From the IMG/VR virus record IMGVR_UViG_3300037208_000028, positions 1 to 34,024 of that record: a stretch of DNA of 34,024 nt; one strand, 5' to 3'. Under the pieces are notes generated by a model. That model saw only the letters and a list, made by a program, of their open reading frames with translations, was not told the DNA's origin and ran no database searches. The DNA comes from a virus. The first letter of the stretch is position 1. Each line of letters starts with the position of its first letter. Both the position numbers and the translations under genes were made by a program. Below, piece after piece: positions 2,280 to 21,605 of the stretch.

Positions 2280-2744
2280 TTATTGGGGAATGAACGACAC
2301 GGTAACGGAGCCGTTGCCCGACGCCGTGGTGTTCGTCACGTTAAGAGTGATGGTTTCCCCGATGTTGCGCCGAAAACCCTTGCCTCCAAAAGTCAATACC
2401 TGCCAGGTCCCGGCAGTCGCGCTTATGCCCGTCCCGTTTCCGCCCATGAGGTCGAGGTTGGTGCTTCCTATCGGAAAAGTCAGCGTCATGCTGTAGCCGG
2501 TCGGGGCGGTCGTGCCGGGAGAAATATCAATCTGGTAGGGGAACCAGCCGGGGAAAGCCCCGACTATGGCAGAAGGCACGACTCCCGTCGAAGCGTCTCC
2601 GACAAATGAGCATGTCACTGTCATGGTTGCGAGAGCGCCGTTCCCGATGGTCACGGGCGGCTGACAGGTGTTCGTGCCGGCCGCGCGAGCGCAAAGCGGC
2701 AACAGCACAAAAAGTATTACGAGGGCTGCGAGTAGTTTCTTCAT
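2280..2744 (-). CDS. Secreted beta-rich protein of the fibre region, unknown function
   Basis: A 154-residue protein starting at the ATG at 2744, which overlaps the TGA of the upstream gene (ATGA). A longer frame exists upstream but would start inside that gene. Residues 1-21 are a signal peptide (MKK, Leu/Val/Ile core, cut after ARA). The mature part is rich in Thr, Gly and Val, with short alternating hydrophobic strands and two early Cys. Its pattern (TGYSMTLTFP, DLMGGNGTGIS, ITLNVTNTTASGNGSVTV) is like small virion-associated beta-sandwich proteins seen beside fibre genes in environmental phages. I recognise no named family. It sits between the AdoMetDC-like gene and the fibre gene. Confidence 0.6.
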   Translation of the reverse strand: MKKLLAALVILFVLLPLCARAAGTNTCQPPVTIGNGALATMTVTCSFVGDASTGVVPSAIVGAFPGWFPYQIDISPGTTAPTGYSMTLTFPIGSTNLDLMGGNGTGISATAGTWQVLTFGGKGFRRNIGETITLNVTNTTASGNGSVTVSFIPQ

Positions 2745-3070
2745 GTCCGGTCTCCTTCGTGCCATGATTCTATTTTCATCGCTGCTTTACCGCCGAACGT
2801 CCTTTCTACATCCCGCCTGAATCTTTCGGCGTCTTCATCGCTCGGGGGTTTGCATGTTGACATCTCGATCCGGGCGTATGGCCCTCCATCGTCGAGAGGC
2901 CATGTGTGAATGTAGAAGTGCGATTCTACGAGGGTCACGCCAACCGTCACCCCGTCCCTGTCTCCCTTGTTCCTCTCGACGTAGGCCCGCAAGGTCTCGG
3001 GGGCCATGTGCTGCCCGCAGGTCTCTATGCCCCGCAGCAAAAGGTCACGCACCGTGCCCTCCTGAAACAT
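2741..3070 (-). CDS. AdoMetDC (SpeD/SpeH)-like pyruvoyl decarboxylase proenzyme
   Basis: A 109-residue protein with the core of prokaryotic S-adenosylmethionine decarboxylase, the self-cleaving pyruvoyl enzyme that supplies aminopropyl groups for spermidine. The segment TLVESHFYIHTWP matches the family processing site: E49-S50 would be the cleavage bond with S50 becoming the pyruvoyl group. H55 and C73 correspond to the conserved His and Cys (His68/Cys83 in the Thermotoga enzyme), with a 3-residue insertion (DDGG) between them. The beta chain is short (49 versus about 62 residues). The ATG at 3070 has no visible Shine-Dalgarno and the open frame continues 19 codons upstream to a TGA, so the true start may be a non-ATG codon. 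Substrate may differ from AdoMet, since viral homologues of this fold can be decarboxylases of other amino acids. Neighbours: HExxE protein and ATP-grasp protein. Confidence 0.75.
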   Translation of the reverse strand: MFQEGTVRDLLLRGIETCGQHMAPETLRAYVERNKGDRDGVTVGVTLVESHFYIHTWPLDDGGPYARIEMSTCKPPSDEDAERFRRDVERTFGGKAAMKIESWHEGDRT

Positions 3071-3127
3071 CGGGACATACAGGCCGTTGTAAACGTTGAT
3101 TTTGATGAGCTTCCCCGTCCACCATTG

Positions 3128-3508
3128 TCAATTCACCTCAAAGAGTCGATTTATTTCCGCCTCGTAATCAACCCAATCGTCGCCCGCCATGACGCAGCAG
3201 GCCCGCTCCAAAACATCCGATTCCATGTGTTGCTTATGATACAGCGCCTCCCTGCTCAATCCGGGGTCGTCCAGTTCCGGGTGGCTCATGTCGAAGGCGT
3301 CCACGGCCTCATCCGATACCCCGTCACGGTCCTTTCTGAACTTCTCCCATATCTCATGAATGAGGGCGTAAATGGAGCGGAGACCGGACAGCCGGGTAAT
3401 CTTGAACCAGATAACGTCGTCTTTCTCACCGTAGTCGCCGACGGTTGCATACCGCTGCTCGGTCTGCGGCACGAAGTCTATGACGATGCGCTTAAAAGTG
3501 AATGCCAT
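3128..3508 (-). CDS. Conserved phage protein with HExxE-type motif, unknown function
   Basis: A 126-residue protein. The ATG at 3508 is chosen because of GGGAGAGG just upstream and a 17-bp overlap with the end of the ATP-grasp gene; a longer frame reaches 3646 without a good RBS. Residues about 45-60 read LIHEIWEKFRKDRDG. Later come DAFDMSHPELDDPG and an acidic tail with YHKQHMESDVLERA and GDDWVDYE. This arrangement (helix with HE-x-x-E, then Asp-Pro-Gly and Tyr-His-x-x-His) recurs in a widespread phage family and suggests metal binding, but I know of no tested function. The stop is TGA at 3130-3128 and the AdoMetDC frame continues in the same phase beyond it. Confidence 0.65.
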   Translation of the reverse strand: MAFTFKRIVIDFVPQTEQRYATVGDYGEKDDVIWFKITRLSGLRSIYALIHEIWEKFRKDRDGVSDEAVDAFDMSHPELDDPGLSREALYHKQHMESDVLERACCVMAGDDWVDYEAEINRLFEVN

Positions 3509-5057
3509 ATGCCTCTCCCGCCTTGATCGCCTCCGAATCCTGCTCGAACACATCAGGACTCGAATCGATCTCCATACCCTCGATCTGCTCGAAGTTCTCC
3601 TTGCACTCGTCCACGGCTTCCTGTGAGGAATTCCCGAGCCCGACAACGGCGCCGAAAAATCCGCCGTTCTGGTTCGGGAAGCAATGGCTGTACTCCCCGT
3701 CTCTGTAACAGTTCTTGAGCTTCACAAAGCGCTGCGCTTTTTCGGGAACCTTGACGACGATCTCGTGCTTCTCGTTCCAGTGAGAAGTGAGGACGAGGAC
3801 GGCCAGGTGCGTCTTCTCATGCTCCAAGGCGGGCACTATGCCGTTGGCGATCTGATCGACCGCCTCGGGGTAGTTCGTGTACGCTTCGAGCATCGCCTCG
3901 AAGGGCGGGGACGGCGCCCGTTTTGTCGCATCGATGTAGTAGGGCGTCCCGTTCCCGGTGATCCGCACTTCCGTCGAGTAATGCCCGCGGCTGCCGGCGA
4001 AGAGATGTGACAGCTTCTCGTGGAACTGGCCAAGGATCTCCGGCCGCTCGGTGAAGACCTTCCCGATGTACCCCCTGTCCTTCACTTCATAGCCGAGGAT
4101 GCAGGTTTCGGGGAATTCCCCATCGATGTCGAAGTCGTCAAGGCCAGGCTCGCAGACGGTCTCTATCTTGGGCTGAATGATGATCTTGACCTTATCGGCC
4201 CGCTTTCCAAGGCGCTGTCTGAGATCGTTGACCCAGGGCAGGAAAAGGCGCATGTCGCCGGGGTAGCGCACCGTCTCGAAGTCGCCCCGGTACTGCCCCT
4301 TCAGAAACATCTCCCCCTTGCTTTTGAGGTACGCGAGAGCGTCGTCCACGCCGTCGGCGATGTAGTAGGGTTTGGCGACGGCGAAACCGTGCTCCTCGAG
4401 TTGTTCGAGGAACCAGACCTTGTCTAGTTCAAAGTTGTCCTTGCTCCCGAAGACGGTATGGCCCTGCTTGCGGAGCGCCTCTATCCACTTCCAATTTCCA
4501 CAATCGGGAAAATAGATTGTATCAGCCTTGTCGATGTATTCCCATGGCGTCTTCACCCGCTCTATCTCGTCAAAGCCCTTGCCGATGTCCGCAAGCTGCG
4601 ATTCGGGGTAGAGCTTGTCATCTTGGAGGCAATAATATACCTTCTTGTATCTCTCCCCGAGGCGAACGGCAAGGGGCAAATACGGGCCTTTATCGATCAC
4701 AAGGGCGGTCTTGTCGGCCACACTGTAGGCTTCCTCTGCGACAGGCTCGTCTTGCCTGAGTGCCTGCTGTGTAACCCCCATTGCCCCGGCATACATCTCA
4801 GAGTGCAGCCCGTTCGATAGCTGGCCCTTAATCCTGCCGTAAATCCTGGGCTGAAACTTCAAAACCCACCTTGCCGCCTGCCCACGGTCCAGGAAGAGCT
4901 TGCCGTCAGGGGTAAAGCCCTTGGCGGACTCCGCTGCCGGTATCCCTTCCCGCTCTGCAAGCGTGTCGTGCGAATCGTCGCCCTGCCCTTTGTAGATGCG
5001 CGTCCTAATCCTGATGGCGGGGAAAAGGCGAGGTTCTTTTTTATTTGACAAGTTCAT
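3492..5057 (-). CDS. ATP-grasp ligase-like protein with N-terminal phage domain
   Basis: A 521-residue protein. Residues about 45-95 (GFTPDGKLFLDRGQAARW, then GLHSEMYAG) resemble a short module common in phage proteins (GRFVxRxEA followed by LHSE). From about 185 the sequence follows the PurD-like ATP-grasp fold: WIEALRKQGHTVFGS (185-205), a conserved Lys near 213, FLKGQYRGDFETV (251-263) in the ATP-lysine and glycine-rich loop position, and E363 plus D376-x-x-R380 in the order expected for metal and phosphate ligands. ATP-grasp enzymes join a carboxylate to an amine or similar nucleophile through an acyl phosphate. The substrate is unknown; the neighbouring AdoMetDC-like gene hints at an amine. 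Start at 5057 follows AAGG. Its start region overlaps a plus-strand promoter. Confidence 0.72.
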   Translation of the reverse strand: MNLSNKKEPRLFPAIRIRTRIYKGQGDDSHDTLAEREGIPAAESAKGFTPDGKLFLDRGQAARWVLKFQPRIYGRIKGQLSNGLHSEMYAGAMGVTQQALRQDEPVAEEAYSVADKTALVIDKGPYLPLAVRLGERYKKVYYCLQDDKLYPESQLADIGKGFDEIERVKTPWEYIDKADTIYFPDCGNWKWIEALRKQGHTVFGSKDNFELDKVWFLEQLEEHGFAVAKPYYIADGVDDALAYLKSKGEMFLKGQYRGDFETVRYPGDMRLFLPWVNDLRQRLGKRADKVKIIIQPKIETVCEPGLDDFDIDGEFPETCILGYEVKDRGYIGKVFTERPEILGQFHEKLSHLFAGSRGHYSTEVRITGNGTPYYIDATKRAPSPPFEAMLEAYTNYPEAVDQIANGIVPALEHEKTHLAVLVLTSHWNEKHEIVVKVPEKAQRFVKLKNCYRDGEYSHCFPNQNGGFFGAVVGLGNSSQEAVDECKENFEQIEGMEIDSSPDVFEQDSEAIKAGEAYGIHF

Positions 5058-5223: not shown

Positions 5224-6813
5224 TCATTGGCTATTCTCCGACCGCCGCAATCCGTAATAGCTGATGAGTTTCATAAATGCCGCTGGGTTCATGTTAGCGG
5301 TTTTTGATAGCTGAATCGCTATGTTCGACATAAGTGCAGGAGAACGAAGCGCCCGCGCGATCATCGCGCCACCCACGACACCTTTCTCTGTTCCTCCAAC
5401 ATCCCGGTCTTTTACTAGACCCACTGCCCCTCCCACGCCCGCACCTGCAAGATCGGAAAGGCCTAGAACGTCCCAATTCTTTGTTCTGTTGAGCGCCCGC
5501 TGTTGAATCTCACGAAAAATGATGTGCTCAGATTCTTCCTTATTGACCTTATTGAGAAGGCCCGTATTGTCACGATCAAGGAGGGCTTGTCTTACCCCCC
5601 TTGCCACACCTTTCAGGGTCTCTTTCGTTGTATCCGCAATCTCGCCATATGATGAATCTGTGATGTATTCGTAAAGGTCTTTTTTCATGTCCTGGGCTTC
5701 TATCGGCGTGAGATACCCTCCGTGCTTCCCCGCATACTCTTCGAGCAGATTTTGGACATTAGCCAAATCTTTTTCTGGAAGGTTGCCATACCTGCGCAGT
5801 AAGGGTTTCTCTATGCTTTTCACTACTTCCCGCATGTCGATGGCGGGCCGTTCAATGCTTGTATCGGGGCTTTTGACGGTAATAATGGTATCCGGCTTTA
5901 CTTCTATCCCCTTGAACATCCGCCGCCACTGGTCAAGCTGAGGTTTTGGATATTTCGACATATAGTGGGTTGGATCATTCCCGACGTTGCCTTTCTCGTG
6001 GTATATCTCCCTGTACGGCTCGCTCCATTTGCTTTCTGACGAAACTACTGTTTTGCCGGGAATTGTCTTTGTGGTTGTTTCTCCTGGCACGGTAAGCGTG
6101 TCTGTCTGTTTCATGCCTTTTACGATGTCATCAACTTGCGTCAAGAGGCCTTTAAACTTCTTTTGTGCTTTAGCCGCTCCTCCTTCGGTAACTGCATAGC
6201 CTTCTTTGAGGCCGAGCTTGACGGCGATATCTGACTCTGCTTTCGGAGTGCTCGGAACGGGCTTCAAAACACGGCGGTAAGTAGCCTCCGCGACGGCGGG
6301 AACAACTTTTTGCAGACCTTTTTGCAGGAGATAGTTCTGTACCTGCCCGCCCGCCTCCATCCCTGCACCGCTTACCACATCTTTGCCTGCGTTCAGGAAG
6401 TTTCGGGGCAGTGTTTCGGGCTTTCTCGCGCCTGCATATTCTTCAAGCCCGGTGGCTATATTCCGCCCTGCCGCGTATCCTAATCCTGCTCCAAGTACGC
6501 CACCCGCCACGCTTCCGGCCCCCGGTGCGGCGAGTGTTCCGCCGCCTGCGCCAACAGCACCGCCGAGAAGAAGACCGCCTGTTTCGAGAACGGGGCGGGC
6601 ATAAGGCGCAACCGCTGCGGCTACCCTCTGGCCCGTAGAGCGATCGGTCTTGGTGTCGTCGGTGAGTGGGGCTTCCACGGGAAAGAATTTATTCGATCCT
6701 GTAAGGAGAAGACCTTTCTTTCCCTCGTAGGTCACCTGCTCAAAGGCTTCCTTCGGGTAAAACTGGTTGCCCTCCAAGTACCCCTGTTTGCCTTCGTAGG
6801 TCACCTTTTCCAT
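5224..6813 (-). CDS. Large internal virion / ejection protein candidate
   Basis: A 529-residue protein. The N-terminus holds an imperfect duplication (KVTYEGKQGYLEGNQFYP and QVTYEGKKGLLLTGSNKFFP). Residues about 80-125 are a Gly/Ala-rich hydrophobic stretch (GGLLLGGAVGAGGG, GSVAGGVLGAGLGYAAG), and a second similar stretch lies near residue 455 (LAGAGVGGAVGLV). The middle is charged and helical. Gly/Ala-rich segments in large proteins encoded after the neck genes are typical of podovirus ejection proteins that enter the host envelope (P22 gp7, gp16 and gp20 are the functional analogues), but I see no direct family match. It starts one base after the stop of the 6815-8305 gene and ends tail-to-tail with the moron. 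Confidence 0.55.
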   Translation of the reverse strand: MEKVTYEGKQGYLEGNQFYPKEAFEQVTYEGKKGLLLTGSNKFFPVEAPLTDDTKTDRSTGQRVAAAVAPYARPVLETGGLLLGGAVGAGGGTLAAPGAGSVAGGVLGAGLGYAAGRNIATGLEEYAGARKPETLPRNFLNAGKDVVSGAGMEAGGQVQNYLLQKGLQKVVPAVAEATYRRVLKPVPSTPKAESDIAVKLGLKEGYAVTEGGAAKAQKKFKGLLTQVDDIVKGMKQTDTLTVPGETTTKTIPGKTVVSSESKWSEPYREIYHEKGNVGNDPTHYMSKYPKPQLDQWRRMFKGIEVKPDTIITVKSPDTSIERPAIDMREVVKSIEKPLLRRYGNLPEKDLANVQNLLEEYAGKHGGYLTPIEAQDMKKDLYEYITDSSYGEIADTTKETLKGVARGVRQALLDRDNTGLLNKVNKEESEHIIFREIQQRALNRTKNWDVLGLSDLAGAGVGGAVGLVKDRDVGGTEKGVVGGAMIARALRSPALMSNIAIQLSKTANMNPAAFMKLISYYGLRRSENSQ

Positions 6814-6814
6814 A

Positions 6815-8305
6815 CTACCAACCCTTCTTAGCTTTGGACGGGTCTATGGTGATAACGCCAGGAGGAGCGCCGCTCTGATCTTTGGGAGACGGTTTCCCCC
6901 TCATCTCGTCTTCGATGTCTTTTTGCGACTTATTGGCTGCATCCATGCTTGTCTTGCCGAGGGCCTTACCTGCTTGCACGACTTTCATCAATTCCCCAAC
7001 TTTCAGGTTTTCATCATGGATTCTTGCCATTATCTTTGCCTGGTCGATGGACACCGCGGCTATCCCAAGTGAGCCGGATTCGACCTTTGCTACTTCGTTT
7101 GAAAGGCTTGTGATAACAAGTTTGAGGGATGCGAGATCGCCAGACCCAACAAATTTAGCAAGCTCATTGACACCCATGTTGACAAAGCGGGGGTCGGTGA
7201 GGTTGTATTTTTTGGCAAGTTTTTCAACCAAGTTGGACTGCCCATCTATTCTGTTGACAAAGGTACTTATCAAGCCTTTCCTCTTCGTCACATCCTGTAA
7301 GGCCATTTGGCGGGCCTTAAACATGGCCTGCGCTGCTGCCGAGTCCGAGCCGGAATTACCTTTATTTTTTTCATACTTCGCGTAGCCCCTAGTAAAAGCG
7401 TTGCGGCTTTCTGCATCACGCCACGCAAAAGGCGGCATAGTTTTATTGCTTTCGTACTGCTCGAACCAGAAGTCTTTATCCTCTTGAGCCGCTTGAGCGA
7501 AACTTCCAGGAGCATTACTGCCTGCTTTTCGTCTCCCGGCTTCGGCTGCTTCGGCCTTTGGCCCGGCCACGTTGACCTGTATGTTTGCTCTGACCTGCTG
7601 ATTCGGCACTACTTTCGGCACATACTTGTTCTCCGGGCCTATCTCGAAGGTTGCGCTGAGTGCAGCGCCCTTTCCCGCCTTCGCAACCATCTCCTGAGAC
7701 ACCTTCATCGCCTCTTCGGGCGTGTCGTAGCCTTTCACCTTGTTCATGTTGAATAACTTTGATTCCGCCTCCTCGGCCCCCTTAACCATCCCGGTCTGTT
7801 TCTCTCCTCTAGCATCTATGGCGGCTTCCTGTAAAGCCTTCATGCGGTCTTGAGGGTTGGGAAGCTTCTGAATAGCCTTTAGCCTGTCTCCGAACTCGTT
7901 AAGGATCGGCGTGTTCGCCGAAGAGATGCCATCGAACAGCGCCCGCAGTCCAGGAGTGGGGGCTGTCTGTTTCAGGCCCTCAAGCCCTTTTGCTGCCGTG
8001 TCCGGGTCCTTCGAGTTCATCATGTCGAGGAAAGCATCGCCGATCTTTTCCGCCGTAATGGGATCGACACCCGGGTATCGTTGTGCAAGAGCGTTGTAAT
8101 GCTGTGTCTGGTGTTGCTGCTTTGTTTCTTCTTCCCGAGCCTTCAGAAAGTTGACCTTGTTGGCAAGGCGCTGAGTCTCTACCCGGTCCCCGAGGGTCGC
8201 TACGGCGATCATGTCCTGCGTCGTCGGCTGCTGGTAAACGTCCGAGAGCTTCACCTGTGGAGTCTGATTGTATTGAGGAAGGAAGTTCAACCAGTTGTCA
8301 GGCAT
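6815..8305 (-). CDS. Internal virion / ejection protein candidate
   Basis: A 496-residue protein if it starts at the ATG at 8305, which shares one base with the stop of the upstream gene (TGATG); a GTG six codons earlier (8323) is the alternative. The N-terminus is MPDNWLNFLPQYNQTP. The rest is hydrophilic and strongly helical, with long Gln/Lys/Glu stretches (EEETKQQHQTQHYNALAQRY) and an Ala/Lys-rich C-terminus. It has no membrane segment. Its size, composition and place between two Gly/Ala-rich proteins suit an internal head protein ejected with the DNA. No catalytic motif is visible, and the role is inferred from position. Confidence 0.5.
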   Translation of the reverse strand: MPDNWLNFLPQYNQTPQVKLSDVYQQPTTQDMIAVATLGDRVETQRLANKVNFLKAREEETKQQHQTQHYNALAQRYPGVDPITAEKIGDAFLDMMNSKDPDTAAKGLEGLKQTAPTPGLRALFDGISSANTPILNEFGDRLKAIQKLPNPQDRMKALQEAAIDARGEKQTGMVKGAEEAESKLFNMNKVKGYDTPEEAMKVSQEMVAKAGKGAALSATFEIGPENKYVPKVVPNQQVRANIQVNVAGPKAEAAEAGRRKAGSNAPGSFAQAAQEDKDFWFEQYESNKTMPPFAWRDAESRNAFTRGYAKYEKNKGNSGSDSAAAQAMFKARQMALQDVTKRKGLISTFVNRIDGQSNLVEKLAKKYNLTDPRFVNMGVNELAKFVGSGDLASLKLVITSLSNEVAKVESGSLGIAAVSIDQAKIMARIHDENLKVGELMKVVQAGKALGKTSMDAANKSQKDIEDEMRGKPSPKDQSGAPPGVITIDPSKAKKGW

Positions 8306-9405
8306 CAGTTCACCCCCGGCCACGTGCTTTGGAATCCCCCGACGCCCGAGAGCTGGTCAGAATATCCGCCGGAAGGGTTCTGATAGTTGTAGGCATTGAC
8401 GTTCAAGCCCTGCAGAGCCTGAGCGATGTTCTGCGAGTTCAGGTAGTTAAGGTACTGCCCGCCGGCCGTCGTGATACCATTGTTAGCGCCCGTGAGTCCC
8501 TGGCTCAATGCCGTACCTTGCGCCGCTATGCCTCCCGCCGCCGACTGTCCGCCCTGGGCCGCATACCCGCCCGCCGTGGTGGCCGCGCCGCTCTGAATAT
8601 TGGCAAGGGTCGTGTTGGCGCTCTGCCCCGAGCCCCCGACGTTGCCCGTCAGGTAGCCGTAAATCATGTTCCGGGGCTGAATCTGGTTCGTGTTGTAGTT
8701 CTGCGCCGCCTGGTTGTAGTAGGTCGGTTCCAGGGTGCCCGCAAGGTAATTAGAGATAGAAGACGCCATGTTGCCGCTTCCGTAGTTGCCCGCGGCGGCG
8801 TTCTGCGAGGCAAGTACGCCGTTGGCGAACGTCGAGGCATTCTGCAGCCCGGTGTCGGTATTCGGGTTGTAGCTGAATTGCGGGATGTTCGTCAGGTAGT
8901 TCGCGGGAAGCCCGCCGGTCGAGATCGCGTTGGACGTCGTGCCGGCTGCCGCCTGCTGCTGCTGGATGCTCTGAAGCTGTGTAAGCTGCTGTTCAGCCTG
9001 AGAATAGGCGCCCGCATACTTCGTCGCAAGGTCGCCGTGGAAGCCGCCCAAATAGGCTTGAAGGCTGGCTATCTGTTGCGTTATCTGATCGGGGGTGGCC
9101 CCGGCAGGCGTGCCCGCGATGGCTCCGACCCCCGACGTTGCGGGTGCCGAGTACGCGCCCCCGGTATCCGCGCCCTGACCGGTCAGCAGATAGTTCAGGT
9201 AGTTATAATTCCCGAGGCCGCTCTGCGTGTAGGGCTGTAGGGTTGCGGCTGCCGACTGTGAGCCTCCGAAAGCGGTCTGCATGGCCGCCGATTCCCCGGT
9301 CATGGCCGCTTGCGCTGCGTTCGCCGCGCTGTTGGAGCCCACGATGGCGTTGCCTGCGCCGGTAGCAACTCCCGAGCCGCCTATTGCTATCGCTGCCCAT
9401 GTCAT
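8305..9405 (-). CDS. Ala/Gly/Gln-rich virion protein, ejection protein candidate
   Basis: A 366-residue protein beginning MTWAAIAIGGSGVATGAG, an N-terminus typical of phage ejection (DNA transfer) proteins, which often open with a small-residue hydrophobic helix. The body is rich in Ala, Gly, Gln, Asn and Tyr (SGLGNYNYLNYLLTGQG; QYLNYLNSQNIAQALQGLN) and poor in charge. The start overlaps the cupin stop as ATGA and has AAGGAG upstream. The C-terminal coding end is coupled to the next gene by TGATG. It is first of three consecutive large genes that I interpret as internal virion proteins, equivalent in order to the P22 gp7-gp20-gp16 group. Confidence 0.6.
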   Translation of the reverse strand: MTWAAIAIGGSGVATGAGNAIVGSNSAANAAQAAMTGESAAMQTAFGGSQSAAATLQPYTQSGLGNYNYLNYLLTGQGADTGGAYSAPATSGVGAIAGTPAGATPDQITQQIASLQAYLGGFHGDLATKYAGAYSQAEQQLTQLQSIQQQQAAAGTTSNAISTGGLPANYLTNIPQFSYNPNTDTGLQNASTFANGVLASQNAAAGNYGSGNMASSISNYLAGTLEPTYYNQAAQNYNTNQIQPRNMIYGYLTGNVGGSGQSANTTLANIQSGAATTAGGYAAQGGQSAAGGIAAQGTALSQGLTGANNGITTAGGQYLNYLNSQNIAQALQGLNVNAYNYQNPSGGYSDQLSGVGGFQSTWPGVN

Positions 9406-9893
9406 GATATCTCTCCTTGTCCGCCTTCTATCTCAATCGTCCTGTCGGCAGGCGTCAGTTCGTCAAAGGTTTTTGCGACAATCTCGTCCTCTATCTTGTC
9501 GATGTCCGTTTCTCTTGTAGCGTGAACGGTTGTCCAGACAACCTCGGTGTGACAAAAGACTATCCTTTTGGTCCCTGCCTTGGTGATGAATGATGCAGGT
9601 CCCGTAACCGTCCGCCGTCCTTCCTCTTCGATGATCGTGACCGTGCCCCGCAGGATAAAAGCGGGGTGAGAATATTTGTGAATCTTGGTGATGGCCAGGT
9701 AGCCAGGAGGCATGGTAATCTCCCTGACGTACATCCCTTCGGCAAAGGTATGCTTGAGCGGGGCGCTGTCGCCTATCATGGCGCCCGGCAGGCTCCTCAT
9801 GCGTTCTTCCGCCGCCATGATCTTCTCTCTGTATTCCGCGAACGAGAGAGGGGTGTTCTCAATAATCTCTATGGCGTTGCTTGCCTCGTTCAT
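9402..9893 (-). CDS. Cupin-domain protein
   Basis: A 163-residue protein. ATG at 9893 is preferred over the GTG at 9896; AGAGGGG lies just upstream. Residues about 55-130 form a small beta-barrel pattern: REITMPPGYLAITK, then H72-K-Y-S-H76, AFILRGTVTII (the Gly turn of cupin motif 1), GPASFITKAGTKRIVFCH115 and TTVH124 as motif 2. The His residues could hold a metal. The C-terminal part is acidic. Cupin proteins are frequent in phage tail-fibre regions and may be structural or act on small molecules or sugars; the reaction cannot be told. It lies between a fibre-like gene and an ejection gene, coupled to both. Confidence 0.75.
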   Translation of the reverse strand: MNEASNAIEIIENTPLSFAEYREKIMAAEERMRSLPGAMIGDSAPLKHTFAEGMYVREITMPPGYLAITKIHKYSHPAFILRGTVTIIEEEGRRTVTGPASFITKAGTKRIVFCHTEVVWTTVHATRETDIDKIEDEIVAKTFDELTPADRTIEIEGGQGEIS

Positions 9894-9902
9894 CACGCCC
9901 CT

Positions 9903-10565
9903 CTATGGCAATGTCGCATAATTAATTCCCCCAGTCAGAGTTCTCGTCATCTTGTGCCATCCTCCGGCTACCCACACGTTAAGGGGATTGTTGGAGTCGG
10001 CGCTTGGGTCCAGATACATGCAGTCTTCCATGACTCCCGTTCCCGCATTGACCGCAGAAATAACCAACGAGCTTCCACTCCCGACTCCCGTGTTGCCCGC
10101 CCTGATCTCCCCGAGAAGGTTTGCTGTGGCTGCGTCCCTTATCGCTATCCTTGCAACGTCGGTTGACGTATCGATGTTAATTCCAAGTCCATCTATACCG
10201 AAGGAGATACCCGCCTCGCTGCTCAAACTCAGCACGGGGTTGCAGGTTGCATAGGTGGCGTCAGTGGCGTTTTGTATCTCTATCCCGCCAGTACCGTTAA
10301 ATAATATCCGCCAGTAAGGGTAAGCCCCAGTGTTACCGAGGGCGCAAAATCTCAGTTCCAAGGTGGAGCCTGCCGCACCTCCGAAAACATTCACCACTGA
10401 GTTTCCCGGCCCTAAGAGAAGCTGGCTCACATACTGATTGAGCGTTTGCCAGTAGCCGTACCCCGTGTTTATAAAGCCGTTCACCGCCGTGACGAGCTGG
10501 CTGAACCACGTCTGCCAGCGGGGATCGGCCGGGGGGATGTTGGGAGAAGGTGCGGGACCGAGCAT
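9903..10565 (-). CDS. Virion-associated / fibre-like protein, unknown family
   Basis: A 220-residue protein starting MLGPAPSPNIPPADPRWQTW. A short helical N-terminal part (FSQLVTAVNGFINTGYGYWQTL) is followed by a beta-rich region with many Gly, Asn and Ser (GAAGSTLELRFCALGN, GTGGIEIQNATDAT, SSLVISAVNAGTGVM). It ends with NVWVAGGWHKM, like the terminal repeats of fibre-type proteins. Unlike its upstream neighbours it has no signal peptide. The start shares one base with the stop of the previous gene (TGATG). Probably a tail-tip or fibre component, by composition and position only. Confidence 0.5.
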   Translation of the reverse strand: MLGPAPSPNIPPADPRWQTWFSQLVTAVNGFINTGYGYWQTLNQYVSQLLLGPGNSVVNVFGGAAGSTLELRFCALGNTGAYPYWRILFNGTGGIEIQNATDATYATCNPVLSLSSEAGISFGIDGLGINIDTSTDVARIAIRDAATANLLGEIRAGNTGVGSGSSLVISAVNAGTGVMEDCMYLDPSADSNNPLNVWVAGGWHKMTRTLTGGINYATLP

Positions 10566-10972
10566 CAGAATTTCATCCCTATTCCTATTCTGGCATTATT
10601 TCCTACGCACGCGCCCTCGGTGATCGTGATGGCGACGGAGAAGTACTGCCGGTTGACGATACGCTTATAGCCATGGTCTTCCTTCGGGGGCAGCATCCAC
10701 GTCGTGAGCCAATACAGGGGGATGACGGCGGCAAAGTATTTATTGACCGTCTGGACTGAAGGATGGGGGCCGAGAAGCACGTTTGTCTCATGCCAATTAT
10801 CCGGGTTGGCAGCAACATACCTGCTTTGCGCCCAATCCACGCCGAGGAGCGCCGTGTCGACCGCGAGCATGGCAAGGTCCGTCTTACCCAAGGGGGCGAA
10901 CCATTCACCTGCTCTCGCGGAGAGGGGGACGGCGAGAAAGATCAAAAGAAAGAGGGCTGCAGTCCTCATCAT
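10565..10972 (-). CDS. Signal-peptide protein with hydrophobic segments, unknown function
   Basis: A 135-residue protein. ATG at 10972 overlaps the previous stop as ATGA; a second ATG follows at once. Residues 1-21 are a signal peptide (MMRTAALFLLIFLAVPLSARA). The mature part has a hydrophobic, acidic helix (LAMLAVDTALLGVDWAQSRYV), then a Trp-His-Glu-Thr-Asn pattern, LLGPHPS and VNKYFAAVIPLYWLTTWML, a second membrane-like stretch. This D-W-x-Q-x-R ... E-x-N-x-x-L-G-x-x-P-S layout is familiar from small phage and bacterial membrane proteins, but I know of no established function. It may be an envelope protein made late in infection rather than a virion part. Confidence 0.55.
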   Translation of the reverse strand: MMRTAALFLLIFLAVPLSARAGEWFAPLGKTDLAMLAVDTALLGVDWAQSRYVAANPDNWHETNVLLGPHPSVQTVNKYFAAVIPLYWLTTWMLPPKEDHGYKRIVNRQYFSVAITITEGACVGNNARIGIGMKF

Positions 10973-12021
10973 TGCTTCTTCAGGAAAAAGGCGTAAATCG
11001 TATTCGGTTGGGTAGCTGTCGCTCCTGTGACAATACTGTTCAGCGTCAGGGTGCCACTACCGGTGACTTCTACAATAACTGCCATTGACAGATTCGCGCC
11101 ATAATTGGGCAATGCCACACCTGTTACTCCATTACCGCCGGATGGAGGCATAAAAGTTGCTGAAGACGTCCCTGTGGCGGTTGGGTAGAGTCCCACCGCG
11201 GTGTTGACGGTAGTAGACTGCGAGCCCACTGCGGCATATAAAAAAGCCAGAATCCTGTCTCCTACCGTGACCTGCCCCAAGGAAAGGCTCGTGGTCGTGG
11301 AGGTCCCGGTATTACTTGCCTCTCCCGTCATGGCCAGGTTCGTCGCCGTGCCCAGGTAAACGCGCGGTAACGAATCGTTGGTTGCCGTGATGATGCCCGT
11401 CGAGATCGCCGACAGGCCCGAGTCCAGGGTGCCCGAGTCCCAGGTGACCGTGACTGTGGTCACGACAGGAGAACCCCCCGTGCTTGACGTTGCGACCGTG
11501 CCGTAAATGGTTCCTGCCGACACGACGGCCTTGACACGCTGACTTGTCGCAAAGACGGCCGTCTGATTGCCCGGCGTGGTGAACTGCGTGGCGTTTATAT
11601 ACGTGAAGACCTGCGTATACAGTATCCATTGGGCGCCTACATTGGCCGTGTTTGGCATGGAGGAGACGTTGTCTCTCGTCCAGATGGAGACGCCGTTCTG
11701 GTCATAGAGGGCAAATTTGTAATAACCGGACAGCCACACGTCGCCTTCGCCGTTGGTATCGAGGATAACCGGGTTTGCGTTGGCCGTCCCGCCCGTAGAG
11801 TCGGTGTAGGTGGCCTTCAAATAGGCCGAGCCCGCCCCGCAAGTTGTTCCGGCCTGGCAGGTATAGAGCTGACAGCCGGAGCAGGGCGTGCCCGTGCCTA
11901 TCTCGAAAGCTTTAAATCTAGGATACGGCGCGATGCTCACGGACTGAGCGAAGGCGCTGCCGGCGAGAAGCAAAAGGCCGAATATAGAAATAAGGATTTT
12001 CTTATATCTAGATGTGATCAT
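10969..12021 (-). CDS. Fibre-like protein with signal peptide
   Basis: A 350-residue protein. ATG at 12021 is chosen over an upstream start at 12171 because it overlaps the gp10-like stop (ATGA), has AGGAG upstream and opens a clean signal peptide (residues 1-25, cut after AFA). The mature N-terminus (IAPYPRFKAFEIGTGTP) holds a Cys cluster (C-S-G-C, then C and C within about 15 residues). A segment with NANPVILDTNGEGDVWLSG follows, a recurrent fibre motif; then come Thr/Ser/Val-rich repeats to the end. The early Cys could form disulphides if exported. Likely a receptor-interacting protein. Confidence 0.6.
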   Translation of the reverse strand: MITSRYKKILISIFGLLLLAGSAFAQSVSIAPYPRFKAFEIGTGTPCSGCQLYTCQAGTTCGAGSAYLKATYTDSTGGTANANPVILDTNGEGDVWLSGYYKFALYDQNGVSIWTRDNVSSMPNTANVGAQWILYTQVFTYINATQFTTPGNQTAVFATSQRVKAVVSAGTIYGTVATSSTGGSPVVTTVTVTWDSGTLDSGLSAISTGIITATNDSLPRVYLGTATNLAMTGEASNTGTSTTTSLSLGQVTVGDRILAFLYAAVGSQSTTVNTAVGLYPTATGTSSATFMPPSGGNGVTGVALPNYGANLSMAVIVEVTGSGTLTLNSIVTGATATQPNTIYAFFLKKQ

Positions 12022-13478
12022 TCTGCATAGGCTCCTATCAAAACTTTTTTTACGGGATCGCTTATCGACACACGAAAAGTCCTGCTCCTCGAACAGCCGA
12101 GCCGCCGCCATATGGCACGGGCCCTGTACTCTCCCTGCTTGCCGATGCTCGCAAGATAGTCGCTGCTCCACGTATGCCCGCCGTCGTCGCTCCAGGAGAG
12201 CGCTGCAGAAGGACTCGGCGCAAGGCTGTTCCCGACGCCCGTTTCCAGGTCGAGAATGAACCGCTTGAAAAAGAGATTGCTGAGGTTCTTGGCGTCATAG
12301 ACGGGCTGAAAGACTCTCGTGCTGACTATCGGGTCTCCGATGTCCTGATAAGTGTTCCCGCTCATCTGGTAGATGTTCCCGCTCTCGTAATCGCCCACGA
12401 GATGCAAGCCGTTGAAATTGGCGTAGCAGTTGCTCACGTGCCTGGCCGTGGCGTAAGGGTTTCCCGTCCAGCCCGAGCGCTCGTGCCAGAACTTCGTTGT
12501 CGCGTCGTAGCACCACGTGGCATTCGCAGTCGGAAAGGTCAGGACCCAAAACTCATGTCCCCCGTCCGCATAGCAGTAGCCGAAAGCATCGCTGACCGTG
12601 CTGTACTGGCTCCAGAGGTAGGCTATGGGAGGCGGCACGATCTGCTCGGGCGTGAAGGTCTGGCCGCTGATGTACGCGGCGCCGAGCATCCCGCCGCTGT
12701 CGTTCTCCCGCGGCGACAACAGGAAGAAGATGCCGTTTGATCCTCTCGATATGCTGGCAGGCGCCGGGGTCCCGAAGTCGAAGACGGCGTTTGTCTGCCG
12801 CTGAAAAGGGAAGCCGACGCTCGGGGAAGTACCCGCGTCGAACCAGCACTCGGAGGAGTACTGCTTGATGAACCAGAGCTGCTGCTGAAGGTTCGCAATG
12901 CCTTGAATGAAGTCGGCAACCGCCGAGACGGGGGATTCCGACAGGCTGTTCCATGTCGTGCCATCGTAAAGGTCCGAGGCGTACCCCGTCATGCTGCCCG
13001 ATGGCGCGACGACAAAATAACCGTCGATGTAGGCAAGGGCTATGGGATTGCCCGGCCAGCCGCCCCCGGATATCGTGCTGAAGGCGGCCGTGTTGACGTT
13101 GTAAACGTAGCCGTTGACGCCGTCGGTAATCATGAGCTGGTTGCCCCCGGCCCCGGCCACGGTGAGCGCGTTGTCGCTCATGAGGACCCGGCCCGTCGAA
13201 GTGGTCAACTGTCCGAGCGAAGCGGATACCACTCCGAGGGCCGTAATGGAGTAGAGCTGACCCGCCACGACAACAAAGAGGAGGCCCTTGAATACGTGCA
13301 TTCCCCTGACAACGGACGCGCCGGCCGATGTCCAGAGGGACAGCCCCGGCGTGCCGATGAGAGCGACGGGACCCTTTGAAGTCTTCGGGGAGAGTTCGGG
13401 GTAAAAATTGATGAGCCTAGATGCGTCGAGGGTGGGTGACCTTCCTACGTATCCGGGTTCACACAAAGGCAGGCGCAT
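12018..13478 (-). CDS. Packaged-DNA stabilisation protein, P22 gp10-like
   Basis: A 486-residue protein that matches the P22 gp10 type, the tail factor that closes the portal channel below gp4 after packaging. Visible signs are the N-terminal RSPTLDASRLINFYPELSP, repeated beta-propeller-like blades (VVRGMHVFKGLLFVVVAGQLY; NPIALAYIDGYFVVAP; QQQLWFIKQYSSECWF) and the C-terminal pattern LSWSDDGGHTWS ... RRLGCSRSRTFRVSISDP, which is characteristic of the family. Length is close to P22 gp10 (472). It directly follows the gp4-like gene: the upstream TAG abuts the ATG. Confidence 0.82.
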   Translation of the reverse strand: MRLPLCEPGYVGRSPTLDASRLINFYPELSPKTSKGPVALIGTPGLSLWTSAGASVVRGMHVFKGLLFVVVAGQLYSITALGVVSASLGQLTTSTGRVLMSDNALTVAGAGGNQLMITDGVNGYVYNVNTAAFSTISGGGWPGNPIALAYIDGYFVVAPSGSMTGYASDLYDGTTWNSLSESPVSAVADFIQGIANLQQQLWFIKQYSSECWFDAGTSPSVGFPFQRQTNAVFDFGTPAPASISRGSNGIFFLLSPRENDSGGMLGAAYISGQTFTPEQIVPPPIAYLWSQYSTVSDAFGYCYADGGHEFWVLTFPTANATWCYDATTKFWHERSGWTGNPYATARHVSNCYANFNGLHLVGDYESGNIYQMSGNTYQDIGDPIVSTRVFQPVYDAKNLSNLFFKRFILDLETGVGNSLAPSPSAALSWSDDGGHTWSSDYLASIGKQGEYRARAIWRRLGCSRSRTFRVSISDPVKKVLIGAYAE

Positions 13479-14225
13479 CTATCTGCTCCAATTCCAACCG
13501 AAGTCGAGTATATTGTCAAAGTTGCCCCGCCTGCCGGGGATCTCCATATCGCAGGTGACCTGCTTCGCGTTCATCGTCATGACCACCTGCTCGGCCTCTC
13601 TCCGCAAGGCTTCCAGGTCTGCCGGGAAGGGGCCGCCGTCGTCGTGATATTGGCGCCAGAGACGCTTTGCCAGGCTGTATTCGAGAAATTCATAGTAGGC
13701 CGATTGGAAAGTGATGGTGTCGGTCGGGTTGACAAGCTCGGTCAAGGGCTTCTGCTCGCCGATGAAAAGGGTATAGGTGTCGGCGCTGTCCGGGGTGGGG
13801 TAGAGCCAGACGGTCCCGGTCTGCGTCGCCTGCTGCGTGAGTCCTGGGTCGTAATAGAGCGCGACGGGCTGCGCGGTGTCGAGTGACTTTGTCTCGATGC
13901 CGTTCCATTCTTCCAGGGTCAGGATATCGAGCCCGATGTCCTCGCCCTCACTCAACCGGATAAAGGCGTCGGTGATCTTGGAGGGCTTCGACGTGTTGAA
14001 GTTCCCGCCTACCCCGATCGTGTAGGACTGCTGCCCCGAGACGAGGGTGAAATTTTCCATAATGGCGGCCAGGATCATGAGCGAGCGGGCTGAGCAGGCG
14101 TCAATGAACATATTGAGTTTGTTGACGGCGTCCTGGATTTCGTCCGGGGCCGGACTTTCGCTCTTGGCTATCGCGCCGATGTCCTGAAAAACGTACTTGA
14201 TGATATCCTGTATCTTGAGGATCAT
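13479..14225 (-). CDS. Tail adaptor / head completion protein, P22 gp4-like
   Basis: A 248-residue protein. The helical N-terminus (LKIQDIIKYVFQDIGAIAKSESP, then DAVNKLNMFIDACSAR) and the central block YTIGVGGNFNTSKPSKITDAFIR are typical of the gp4-like portal-binding adaptors of podoviruses. The C-terminal helix (ADLEALRREAEQVVMTMNAKQV) agrees with this. Adaptors bind the portal ring and recruit the gp10-like protein, whose gene follows. It overlaps the acetyltransferase stop as ATGA. Length is greater than P22 gp4 (166) but usual for environmental relatives. Confidence 0.8.
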   Translation of the reverse strand: MILKIQDIIKYVFQDIGAIAKSESPAPDEIQDAVNKLNMFIDACSARSLMILAAIMENFTLVSGQQSYTIGVGGNFNTSKPSKITDAFIRLSEGEDIGLDILTLEEWNGIETKSLDTAQPVALYYDPGLTQQATQTGTVWLYPTPDSADTYTLFIGEQKPLTELVNPTDTITFQSAYYEFLEYSLAKRLWRQYHDDGGPFPADLEALRREAEQVVMTMNAKQVTCDMEIPGRRGNFDNILDFGWNWSR

Positions 14226-14839
14226 TTAACCCTCTTCGCCGGGCATCCGATATAGGTGCCGGGCTTGGTAATGTCTTTGACGACGACGGCCCCCATGCCG
14301 ATAGTCACGTCATCGCAGATCTTCACTTTCTGCTTGCACGTCGATCTCGCCCCGAAATAGACGCGGTCCCCGATACGGCAGTCGCCCATGATCATGGCGC
14401 CCGGCGCCGTGGTGAAATAATCACCCGCAACCGAGTCGTGGCCGATGACCGTGCCGATGTTCAGATAAGAGTGCTTGCCGATATGAGAGTGGCAGACGAT
14501 GACGCAGTTGGCGGAGATCACCGAGCCCTCGCCCATGGCGAAGGTCGACGGATGCAGGAGCTGCGCTGAATCATGGACGTAAGACCAAAAGCTCGTGCCT
14601 TTCGGAAGCCGGCGGACTATGTTCTCTCTCGCATGGGGTTCATTCACGGCCACGACGATCTCGAAACTCCCGGGGTTGAAGAGTCCGAACCTGAAGATGT
14701 TGTCCTGGGTCAGCCTGAATACCTCGTGCTGATCTTCGGGCCAGTACTTGTCGTCCACGAAGCACGGCATGCCATAATCCCCGGTGAGCGCCCGTATGTC
14801 ATGGCTGGACCCGCCCGCTCCGATAAGCGCCCGCCTCAT
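14222..14839 (-). CDS. NeuD/PglD-type sugar O/N-acyltransferase
   Basis: A 205-residue left-handed beta-helix acyltransferase. The N-terminus (MRRALIGAGGSSHDIRAL) is the small Rossmann-like domain typical of NeuD/PglD proteins, and the domain ends near FEIVVAVNEPHARENIV. From about residue 100 the hexapeptide repeats begin: EGSVISANCVIVCHSHIGKHSYLNIGT, then the conserved GHDS with a catalytic-type His. It ends VVVKDITKPGTYIGCPAKRVK, the standard end of this family. Such enzymes transfer an acetyl group from acetyl-CoA to an amino sugar. The gene is coupled by ATGA to the aminotransferase and to the tail adaptor. Confidence 0.85.
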   Translation of the reverse strand: MRRALIGAGGSSHDIRALTGDYGMPCFVDDKYWPEDQHEVFRLTQDNIFRFGLFNPGSFEIVVAVNEPHARENIVRRLPKGTSFWSYVHDSAQLLHPSTFAMGEGSVISANCVIVCHSHIGKHSYLNIGTVIGHDSVAGDYFTTAPGAMIMGDCRIGDRVYFGARSTCKQKVKICDDVTIGMGAVVVKDITKPGTYIGCPAKRVK

Positions 14840-15468
14840 GGCGTCACCCGATAGACCGGGAATTGCGAGAGGTCCGGGTACGGCAGCTCGATGTCCTCGT
14901 TCTCCTTCGGGTTCCCTTTCAGGTCGTAGAACTGGCCCATCAGGAGCAGCCCGCGGGCCGCTATCTCCGGCATCATGTAGAAGTTCCAGCCGAGCATGTC
15001 AAAATTGTCATCGTGATACGAACACTCACGACGTCCCGAGTATCGCGCCCTCTTGAACCAGAGCCACGCCTGATAATCGTCGGTCAGGATCGCGCCGCCC
15101 TTGCCGAGTTTCAGGTGCTTGTAGGGGCCGGTGAAGGAAAGGCACATGAACGAGCCGGGAATGAACATGCCTGTCGTGAATCGCAGCGCGGAATCCCAAA
15201 CACGGGAGCCTTCTATGAGGTAGGCCCCCTTCAAGGCTGTACCGTCGACAGGTTGAAAAGCGATTTTGCCACCAGCATGAAGAATCTCACAGGGTACCGA
15301 CGGATAGGTACGGGCGGGGATGCTGACTTTTTTGCCCCTTATATCATCCCGCATGAGCGCGAGAAAGATCGCATTGCTCCCGTTGTCGATGGCCACTGCG
15401 TACTTCGCGCCGGTATAGGCAGCAAGCGCGTTCTCGAATTCTGCCGTGATATCGTGGGGATTCTTCAT
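14836..15468 (-). CDS. Short DegT/DnrJ/EryC1-type sugar aminotransferase
   Basis: A 210-residue protein of the PLP-dependent sugar aminotransferase family. It shows EFENALAAYTGAKYAVAIDNG (start of the large domain with the phosphate-binding SNA), VSIPARTYPSVPCEILHAGG, D92 in the position of the pyridine-nitrogen Asp, and K117 in SFTGPYKHLKLGKGGAIL, the usual place of the PLP Schiff-base lysine. Family members are about 360-400 residues long; this one ends soon after GGAILTDD and lacks the usual C-terminal domain. No frameshift is apparent, because its stop overlaps the next start. It may be a compact active form or may need a host partner. Confidence 0.78.
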   Translation of the reverse strand: MKNPHDITAEFENALAAYTGAKYAVAIDNGSNAIFLALMRDDIRGKKVSIPARTYPSVPCEILHAGGKIAFQPVDGTALKGAYLIEGSRVWDSALRFTTGMFIPGSFMCLSFTGPYKHLKLGKGGAILTDDYQAWLWFKRARYSGRRECSYHDDNFDMLGWNFYMMPEIAARGLLLMGQFYDLKGNPKENEDIELPYPDLSQFPVYRVTP

Positions 15469-16133
15469 AGTCCGCCTTCAGCCTGTTGCTTCATGGTGGA
15501 CTTGGTCGCGTGCCAGAAGTCCGGGCCCACCGACGCCGTTTTCATATGCCTGAGTGGAATAGTCGGGTCCGCCCACACTTCGACTCCAAGCTGCTTGAGC
15601 CGCCAGAAGAAAGCGGCATCGGCTTTCAGGAGCGCCCTGTTGTTCCTGTAGGTGTTTTCAAAGGGCTCCCCGAGCCGCGTAATATTCTCGTCGCTGAAGA
15701 GGTCGACTACCCACTTTTTCATGAGCAGCCAGCCTGCGCCGGCCGCATCCACCCGGACCGGTTCTTTGGGGATGTCCACGTAATTCTCGATCAGGCCGTC
15801 GTTGTTGAAGTTGTAGAGCACGGGGCGATAGGGCCAATGCCCTTGATAATAGACACCCGCGAGTACGTCGCGATTCTGCGCAATCATCGCGCCCAATACG
15901 TCGTCCTTGCCTTGGTATTGCACATCGGCGTCATGGAAAAACAGCCAATCGCAGGGGTTGTCACGGGCCGCATAGATGATCTGCGTTGCGTTGTCGGCGG
16001 TTAGACACCCGCCCGCGCCGATGAGGCTGAATTCATCTCCCGCCTTCCCCCGGTGATAGGCAATCATTGACTGCGTGTTGCTCGCCTCGTAAGTGATTAT
16101 CCCTCCATGAGCCGTCCCGACAACGATGTGCAT
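15465..16133 (-). CDS. GT-A type glycosyltransferase
   Basis: A 222-residue protein with the features of a small GT-A glycosyltransferase. Residues 61-80 read CDWLFFHDADVQYQGKDDVL, with a D68-A-D70 metal and nucleotide-sugar binding motif. It is followed by MIAQNRDVLAGVYYQ and VDAAGAGWLLMKKWVVDLF, the acceptor-side block with conserved Gly-x-G. A late HM near residue 195 fits the usual His. No membrane segment is present, so it is probably cytosolic and acts on a soluble protein or nucleotide. It is first of the three sugar genes and its RBS lies in a hairpin (16136-16155). Confidence 0.78.
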   Translation of the reverse strand: MHIVVGTAHGGIITYEASNTQSMIAYHRGKAGDEFSLIGAGGCLTADNATQIIYAARDNPCDWLFFHDADVQYQGKDDVLGAMIAQNRDVLAGVYYQGHWPYRPVLYNFNNDGLIENYVDIPKEPVRVDAAGAGWLLMKKWVVDLFSDENITRLGEPFENTYRNNRALLKADAAFFWRLKQLGVEVWADPTIPLRHMKTASVGPDFWHATKSTMKQQAEGGL

Positions 16134-16135
16134 AT

Positions 16136-16155
16136 GCCCCCTTGGAAAAGGGGGC
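16136..16155 (-). promoter_or_regulatory. Hairpin masking the glycosyltransferase RBS
   Basis: On the minus-strand RNA an 8-bp perfect stem (16155-16148 with 16143-16136) closes a 4-base loop. The 3' arm AAGGGGGC is the Shine-Dalgarno of the gene starting at 16133. The 5' arm shares bases 16150-16155 with the terminator stem, so the two structures exclude each other. Confidence 0.6.
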
Positions 16156-16173
16156 GGGTTTTACGCCGCCCCC
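16146..16173 (-). terminator. Rho-independent terminator after the 236-aa gene
   Basis: Minus-strand RNA: 8-bp GC stem (16173-16166 with 16157-16150), 8-base loop and a run of four U at 16149-16146. It stands just after the stop of the 16179-16889 gene and before the sugar genes, so it should lower downstream expression. Confidence 0.72.
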
Positions 16174-16178
16174 TGTCT

Positions 16179-16889
16179 TTACCCCGCTACTTCGAGGGTC
16201 TGCATGGTGCCTATGATCGTCACCCTTGACGAGCCGTTGGTCACGCTCGATGCAATGGTGAAGGTGCTGCCCGCCGCGACAGCCGCATAGTTTATGGTTC
16301 CCGCGCCGGTGATGGCGTTGGCCGTGGTGCCCTTGTTGATGGTTACCATCGTGCTCGCGCTGTTCGTCACGGTGACGCTTGCCGCCGTGGCATCCAGGGC
16401 GTTGACGAGGATTTCCGTCACATCCAGGTTGACCGGGGCGCCGTTCGCGTCAAAGACATTCACCACACCCGTGGAATTGGTTGCCACGCACACCACGAAA
16501 GGCACTCTTTCAAGCGCCGGCAGGCTGAAGGGGTCGGTGATCGCCCAGTTGGTGTCCCCGTTCTGCGTGGCGATGACGATGTACTCGTTGGGCTTGACCG
16601 TCCAGACCGCCTTGCTTTGGATGGTGTCGGCCACGTTGGTAATCGTGCTCGTGCCCGGCTGGACCGTCAGGTCATAGCTGATACTCAGGTTCTTGAGGCA
16701 ATAGGTCTTTTTGTTGTGGGTCGTCCCGAGAAGGCTGCTGATCGCGGGCAGCGTGACGGTGACGGCGCCGGATGCGTAGTTGACGTCGACCTCGTCAACA
16801 TCCAGTGTCGCCGTGTAAGTGCTGGACCCCACGGTGTAGATCGAATTGGGTGCGTATTTTATCCTGGTAAATTCAAGTAATCCTGGCAT
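16179..16889 (-). CDS. Putative head decoration or surface protein, unknown family
   Basis: A 236-residue, Thr/Val/Ala/Ser-rich, Cys-poor, beta-rich protein directly after the coat gene. It starts MPGLLEFTRIKYAPNSIY with AGGAG upstream. The sequence consists of short alternating strands (VDVNYASGAVTVTLPAIS; YDLTVQPGTSTITN; ASVTVTNSASTMVTINKG), as in immunoglobulin-like or beta-barrel virion proteins. Location after coat and its own terminator suggest it is made in quantity, as a decoration or cement protein would be. It precedes the glycosyltransferase set and its many Ser/Thr would offer O-glycan sites, but that link is inference. Confidence 0.5.
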   Translation of the reverse strand: MPGLLEFTRIKYAPNSIYTVGSSTYTATLDVDEVDVNYASGAVTVTLPAISSLLGTTHNKKTYCLKNLSISYDLTVQPGTSTITNVADTIQSKAVWTVKPNEYIVIATQNGDTNWAITDPFSLPALERVPFVVCVATNSTGVVNVFDANGAPVNLDVTEILVNALDATAASVTVTNSASTMVTINKGTTANAITGAGTINYAAVAAGSTFTIASSVTNGSSRVTIIGTMQTLEVAG

Positions 16890-16913
16890 TTTGTCTCTCC
16901 TTTGCTCAGGGTT

Positions 16914-16933
16914 CCCCCGGCCTTAACCGGGGG
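16914..16933 (-). other. Strong GC hairpin after the coat gene, no U-tract
   Basis: A 7-bp perfect stem (CCCCCGG with CCGGGGG, 16914-16920 and 16927-16933) with a 6-base loop in the 66-bp gap after the coat stop. There is no U run on either side, so termination is unlikely; it may mark an RNA 3' end made by processing. Confidence 0.55.
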
Positions 16934-16955
16934 CTTGCCCATTACTTTTTACTGC

Positions 16956-18212: not shown

Positions 18213-18229
18213 GGTTTACTCCTTTTGGT

Positions 18230-19132: not shown

Positions 19133-19135
19133 GCG

Positions 19136-19207
19136 TCATTCCTCCGTGTTTTCTTTGGTATTTATTGGTTTCTGCTTCACAATCTTCACGACGGGCCACT
19201 CCATCAT
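19136..19207 (-). CDS. 23-aa coupled mini-ORF between portal and scaffold
   Basis: MMEWPVVKIVKQKPINTKENTEE (23 residues). ATG at 19207 overlaps the portal stop (ATGA) with GGGGAGG upstream; the TGA at 19138-19136 is four bases from the scaffold ATG, and the last codons carry the scaffold RBS. It may be a real micropeptide or only a relay that carries ribosomes from portal to scaffold. The product is not recognised. Confidence 0.45.
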   Translation of the reverse strand: MMEWPVVKIVKQKPINTKENTEE

Positions 19208-21507: not shown

Positions 21508-21525
21508 CTAAGGCTCCATAGACGC

Positions 21526-21556
21526 AAAAAAGCCGCTCATCCTTTCGGATGGCGGC
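21526..21556 (-). terminator. Rho-independent terminator between terminase operon and portal
   Basis: Minus-strand RNA: GCCGC+CATCC (21556-21547) pairs with GGATG+GCGGC (21542-21532) around a GAAA tetraloop with one bulged A, then six U (21531-21526). It lies after the 48-aa gene and 19 bp before the portal start, so the structural genes need read-through, anti-termination or their own promoter. I see no clear promoter in the gap. Confidence 0.82.
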
Positions 21557-21605
21557 CTTTGATCTCGTGTGAGTGCTTGAGCGTTAGGCGGTTATGTGGG
21601 TTGCT

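Follow-up and report, generated by a model that had tools for sequence, protein, structure and literature searches.

A PurD-fold ATP-grasp ligase, a small HExxE metal-site protein and an AdoMetDC-like protein are encoded side by side in the virus DNA analyzed here (the window, meaning the whole stretch of 34,024 nucleotides), and this trio recurs, with varying gene order, in unrelated uncultivated phages. With a probability of roughly 0.4, we read it as a mobile virion-module amide-ligase cassette, whose three products would covalently modify a phage-made protein or another component of assembly or genome delivery. The ligase would attach a group to the phage component in an ATP-dependent amide formation, the HExxE metalloprotein (zincin-like, with the usual second metal-binding His replaced by Glu) would trim or oxidize the attached group, and the AdoMetDC-fold protein would be an optional third partner, acting as a helper in some phages. 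An earlier note on this DNA had treated the three genes as a unit of a kind not yet described. The co-occurrence analysis bears out the unit, and no description of the ligase/HExxE/AdoMetDC trio was found in the literature; the novelty does not extend to phage AdoMetDC homologues alone, as homologues decarboxylating ornithine or arginine were already described (PMC9992855).

The cassette in the late operon of the window

The window, a virus record of 34 kb (IMGVR_UViG_3300037208_000028), has its late operon on the minus strand, in which terminase, a P22-like portal, scaffold, the major head protein and the head closure protein Hc3 were firmly assigned. All three cassette genes are coded on this strand. 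The HExxE reading frame starts with an ATG at 3508 and overlaps that of the ligase, and the AdoMetDC frame lies directly behind HExxE (Table 1). The adjacency and the late-operon setting described in the earlier note were thus both recovered, with virion genes around the window cassette and around its relatives. Furthermore, the order of a large late gene followed by the cassette was also seen in loci L089-L091.

Table 1. Positions of the cassette genes, their parts and their neighbors in the window.
Feature	Positions	Strand	Basis or remark
Downstream small late gene, overlaps the end of the AdoMetDC-like gene	2280..2765	-	ORF
AdoMetDC-like protein (SpeD class 1b fold), ATG-started form, 109 aa	2741..3070	-	PF02675
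First strand expected for the AdoMetDC fold, codons in frame, no start codon	3071..3127	-	Aligned with intact L167
HExxE protein, 126 aa, zincin-like fold, H51xxxE55, D73, H94, E101	3128..3508	-	Alignment of 29, model
PurD-fold ATP-grasp ligase, 521 aa	3492..5057	-	ORF, AlphaFold model, PurD structural match, relatives' profile
Ligase PurD-like core, residues 110-512	3522..4730	-	PurD superposition and invariant residues
Ligase N-terminal extra domain, residues ~1-105	4743..5057	-	Common to L089, L090, L091, L095 (and L157)
Large late protein (ejection or tail-related), cassette neighbor upstream	5224..6813	-	Weak PHROG tape-measure match, E 8e-4
Neighboring late protein	6815..8323	-	Cluster 18; relatives adjoin the ATP-grasp gene in L089, L091, L095

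Recovery of the ligase family and co-occurrence of the three genes

The family was opened by a degenerate motif search built from the window ligase, which yielded five relatives at about 30% identity. The alignment of the first relatives was then used as a query and led to 75 viral loci, while a second scan with the ligases of two AdoMetDC-bearing phages led to 80 loci, many of which had an AdoMetDC-like gene on the upstream side. When P0003, P0001 or a 68-residue core served as the only query, no real matches were obtained; P0002 returned chance-level matches only, and tblastn of the P0003, L088 and L124 ligases against 50,697 phage records retrieved none at E 1e-3. A genome scan yielded a single match, in a Patescibacteria assembly, where it lies on a short contig.

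Selection by the ATP-grasp gene alone resulted in 156 loci, of which 101 were distinct at 90% identity, and since the loci were picked by the ligase only, the adjacency of the partners is a fair test. An HExxE gene adjoined 43 of these 101 distinct ligases, both partners were found in 10, and neither was present within the locus in 44. An AdoMetDC-like gene adjoined 24, a number that does not represent a prevalence because the second scan targeted a clade in which AdoMetDC had already been seen. Every HExxE and AdoMetDC-like partner was coded on the ligase strand, with gaps to the ligase of at most 449 bp in all 43 HExxE cases and at most 458 bp in 23 of the 24 AdoMetDC cases (1508 bp in the remaining one). 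As the loci averaged 15.8 kb, random placement would seldom yield such gaps. Screening whole records with PF02675 uncovered two more AdoMetDC-like genes, both at a ligase, and no such gene in 22 other records or in the first five. None of the three genes occurred in the control, which comprised 80 P22-like loci (0.88 Mb) without the ligase, collected via their head-closure gene.

The arrangement of the trio varied. The order HExxE-AdoMetDC-ligase was found in L124, L171, L173, L174, L175 and L180, the order AdoMetDC-ligase-HExxE in L192 and L195, AdoMetDC-HExxE-ligase in L223, and ligase-HExxE-AdoMetDC in the window. On the ligase tree, the window grouped with L089, L090, L091, L095 and L092, all of which carry HExxE downstream and showed no AdoMetDC, while L109 and L124 formed a separate branch. 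This separation implies that the association with AdoMetDC arose at least twice or was often lost. The sole separated case seen was an HExxE gene located approximately 15 kb from the ligase of L145 (record G045, 20101-20472).

The PurD-fold ligase

As a single sequence, the window ligase had no match in family libraries or PDB sequences. Its AlphaFold model (pLDDT 93.8) was superimposed on PurD 2qk4 with a Z of 30.4 over 371 aligned residues spanning 112-512, which corresponds to the full PurD fold, and the next structural families, PurT, PurK and biotin carboxylase, followed at a Z of 24 or below. A profile built from 54 ligase relatives matched PurD 5vev (E 7e-9). The front 105 or so residues fall outside the PurD match, so that the earlier proposal of a PurD-like ATP-grasp core preceded by an additional domain is confirmed. 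Alignments to L089, L090, L091 and L095 start at residues 1-11 and those to nearly all others near 82-120; searches of phage records revealed no significant relative of the N-terminal domain.

Compared with PurD (GAR synthetase), the ligase is alike in its full-length fold, in the profile match and in an invariant Lys with two acidic residues, but it shares only 15% identity, reached 10.4 bits against a cut-off of 288 for the purD equivalog TIGR00877, and differs in the signature. According to the alignments, E-x-N-x-R-x-G-D-P-E of PurD is replaced by D376-x-T-x-R380-x-x-S-P-P. With this substrate motif altered, the protein should be regarded as PurD-like and not as a member of PurD, and its substrate probably differs from that of PurD. 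Among the 54 sequences, K253, R257, E303, D307, E324, K326, E363, R365, D376, R380 and N395 were invariant. We take K253, E363 and D376 as the candidate ATP/Mg residues, an assumption drawn from general ATP-grasp knowledge and the motif alignment and not from a residue-level superposition. The ligase should use ATP to activate a carboxylate and join it to an amine, an activity that we infer.

The ligases of the window clade further depart from PurD by their N-terminal domain, and the family by its phage virion context. The R2K ligases are likewise ATP-grasp ligases of caudate phages, proposed to modify proteins, but they represent another ATP-grasp clade and are set apart from the window ligase by their description (PMC4431377).

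The HExxE metal-site protein

In the alignment of 29 family members, H51, E55, D73, H94 and E101 were invariant and E52 only nearly so, and the motif is better described as HxxxE. The HExxH motif is absent, with H51 and E55 invariant instead, and judged by its sequence the protein is no HExxH peptidase. The gene is maintained with dN well below dS, synonymous sites being saturated in several of the compared pairs. An initial sequence-based guess of an HD or MazG-like hydrolase was rejected, as the best matches of the model (pLDDT 94.5) were zincins, albeit at low Z (IrrE/PprI 5.0, abylysin 4.3). The predicted fold broadly resembles that of the IrrE/PprI, SprT and abylysin zincins, with His-Glu in the active helix, whereas HExxE in place of HExxH, the additional invariant His94 and Glu101, and a Z of only 5 separate the protein from them.

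A further comparison concerns YfcM/EpmC, the EF-P hydroxylase, which modifies a lysine after its extension by a ligase (PMC4231759). Its two His and one carboxylate on a small metal-binding fold resemble the candidate residues of the HExxE protein. However, the Z was 3.3, tied with others, the order of residues in YfcM is HxxxH...E and not HxxxE...H, and a sequence link was not found. The resemblance may serve as a lead, not as a classification.

The AdoMetDC-like gene of the window

Among the three window genes, only the AdoMetDC-like one matched a curated family: P0001 scored 31.1 bits against PF02675 (cut-off 25, E 3e-7), but 28 bits against a cut-off of 75.65 for the AdoMetDC equivalog TIGR03330. 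It carries Glu49-Ser50, His55 and Cys73, where Ser50, His55 and Cys73 are the equivalents of Ser63, His68 and Cys83, and the earlier statement that the core keeps its processing residues therefore holds for the window copy. With class 1b AdoMetDC and its phage ODC/ADC offshoots (PMC9992855, PMC10407285), it shares PF02675, the Ser, His and Cys, and the Pro after HTW.

As assembled, the start of the gene appears defective. Its frame is open up to 3127, immediately after the HExxE stop, and the codons ahead of the first ATG (TGKLIKINVYN...) can be aligned to the beginning of intact L167, but from 3127 to 3070 the frame contains no ATG, GTG or TTG. An ATG at 3125 with GAGGTG upstream is well placed, but in another frame. 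The AdoMetDC frame is also the frame of HExxE, from which it is split by the HExxE TGA, and either read-through or a frameshift may apply at this junction. From the sequence, the gene would either be frameshifted near its start (by decay or sequence error) or give a shortened protein from a late start. Contig L002, identical to the window where the two overlap and originating from another metagenome, stops short of this region.

For the window itself, and compatible with the other readings, the AdoMetDC gene may be decayed or a late separate arrival, with only the ligase-HExxE pair at work. We give this account somewhat less than an even chance. It agrees with the first strand devoid of an in-frame start codon, with the closest ligase relatives lacking AdoMetDC, with the at least twofold origin of the association on the ligase tree, and with the resemblance of the window copy to the stand-alone copy of L167. 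The remaining frame is nevertheless open and all three catalytic residues are kept, as expected if sequencing introduced an error or if translation starts late within the frame. The apparent start defect weakens claims on the window's own enzyme, but not on the cassette, which is intact elsewhere, for example in L124 and L174.

AdoMetDC-like copies in other phages

The other cassettes provided 24 AdoMetDC-like sequences, 23 of them different. Here, the position of H68 was occupied by Asp in 21 copies, by Glu in L183 and by Leu in the truncated L180, and His was found only in L223, whose Glu-Ser pair has Thr in place of Glu. The Ser was present in all 24, and the Cys wherever the sequence extends that far. 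In the T. maritima enzyme, S63, H68 and C83 are essential, with H68 needed for canonical processing, and a bacterial AdoMetDC domain without critical residues does not self-cleave (PMC10407285). By analogy with that domain, decarboxylase activity of the Asp-type cassette proteins is doubtful. At the same time, dN was well below dS in the AdoMetDC-like gene pairs (synonymous sites were saturated in several), and judging from these rates selection keeps the gene despite the change from His to Asp. Ten further AdoMetDC-like proteins were scored with the Pfam model, nine of them reaching E <0.1 and five exceeding the cut-off. Most cassette copies thus differ from class 1b AdoMetDC by the Asp in place of the processing His and by their position next to a ligase, and no spermidine synthase (PF01564) was found in 24 records, many of which are fragments.

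These data bear on two further interpretations. In one, an undescribed phage modification system, an amide-linked group would be assembled and completed on a virion component by the ligase and the HxxxE metalloprotein together, and the AdoMetDC fold would be reused as a partner, in most phages no longer active as a pyruvoyl decarboxylase; we regard this as possible, with the odds clearly against it. Alternatively, as the earlier note had suggested, the AdoMetDC-like protein would decarboxylate an amino acid and the ligase would couple the resulting amine with a carboxylate; the product, a polyamine-like amide, would serve DNA charge, the virion or DNA modification. PurD-type enzymes do couple amino acids with amines, the two genes are repeatedly adjacent, and Ser, His and Cys are all retained in the window; moreover, ODC or ADC activity is known from phage homologues (PMC9992855). 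The loss of the processing His in nearly all other copies, the spermidine synthase result and the presence of an AdoMetDC partner in only the 24 of 101 ligases counted above argue against it, and we consider this pathway unlikely. Amine formation by the AdoMetDC-like protein is not supported by the Asp-type copies, and a polyamine, DNA-charge or DNA-modification product is not supported here.

A profile scan with AdoMetDC found three further relatives, and no ligase was detected in their records. A canonical His-type gene of this kind lies among the late phage genes of L167 (5995-6384), with no ligase detected in the 29-kb record.

Genomic setting and proposed role

In the first set of 74 loci, 54 had a portal-like cluster upstream of the cassette, 41 had a scaffold-like cluster on its downstream side, and 38 had a terminase-like cluster nearby. 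The portal and scaffold names were assigned from sequence and gene order, neither being directly confirmed by PHROGs, and the terminase cluster was matched weakly (E 0.002). Firm PHROG matches placed terminase near the cassette in L124, L171 and L195, and in L181 tail and internal virion proteins before it and a tail protein after it. In some loci, the cassette stands apart from recognized head genes. At L203-L213 (e.g., L209:2126-9748), proteins of approximately 2,500-3,200 residues, mostly without known function, directly precede the ligase in many of some 20 loci.

We infer that the three proteins act in one pathway with a virion-related target. Modification of a phage component is favored by the site among particle genes and by a partner mix like that of ligase-plus-finishing-enzyme pairs. 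Against the cassette reading stand the ligases with neither partner in their locus, nearly half of the distinct set, which means that the partners are dispensable or replaced. The location among virion genes may also reflect late expression only. A trio re-forming beside head, ejection and tail genes, in phages whose ligase has no deposited relative, points to undescribed chemistry of phage particles or of takeover. In addition, selection maintains an AdoMetDC fold from which a residue required for the classic chemistry has been lost. Because the genes co-occur, their function can be tested: the three genes are small, the candidate catalytic residues are clear and the genomic location is defined.

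The ligase could instead serve host takeover or counter-defence by modifying a host protein early in infection, possibly after injection with ejection proteins. The cassette directly follows large ejection-type genes in the window clade and in L172/L181, and a role in modifying host proteins was proposed for the phage R2K ATP-grasps (PMC4431377), but an early-gene context was not seen and the cassettes mostly stand between head genes, which makes this role improbable. Finally, a chance juxtaposition of an ordinary polyamine enzyme with a purine-synthesis enzyme, each fold being known from metabolism, is very hard to reconcile with the close spacing of same-strand genes across many phages and arrangements, the empty controls and the scores far below both equivalog cut-offs.

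Further observations in the window

The downstream late genes at 689-2269 and 2280-2765 encode signal-peptide-like N-terminal stretches, which are unusual in tail-type proteins, and a VTYEGK...GLL-like unit occurs twice at the N-terminus (6680-6813) of the late protein of 529 aa. Between the head and connector genes (14836-16133), an aminotransferase fragment-like gene (PHROG 3139) is paired with a glycosyltransferase-like gene (PHROG 1574/34859), for which sugar decoration of the virion is a possible role. Contig L002 was 100% identical to window positions 8217-23478 over 15,262 bases, and the same phage population recurs in a second metagenome.
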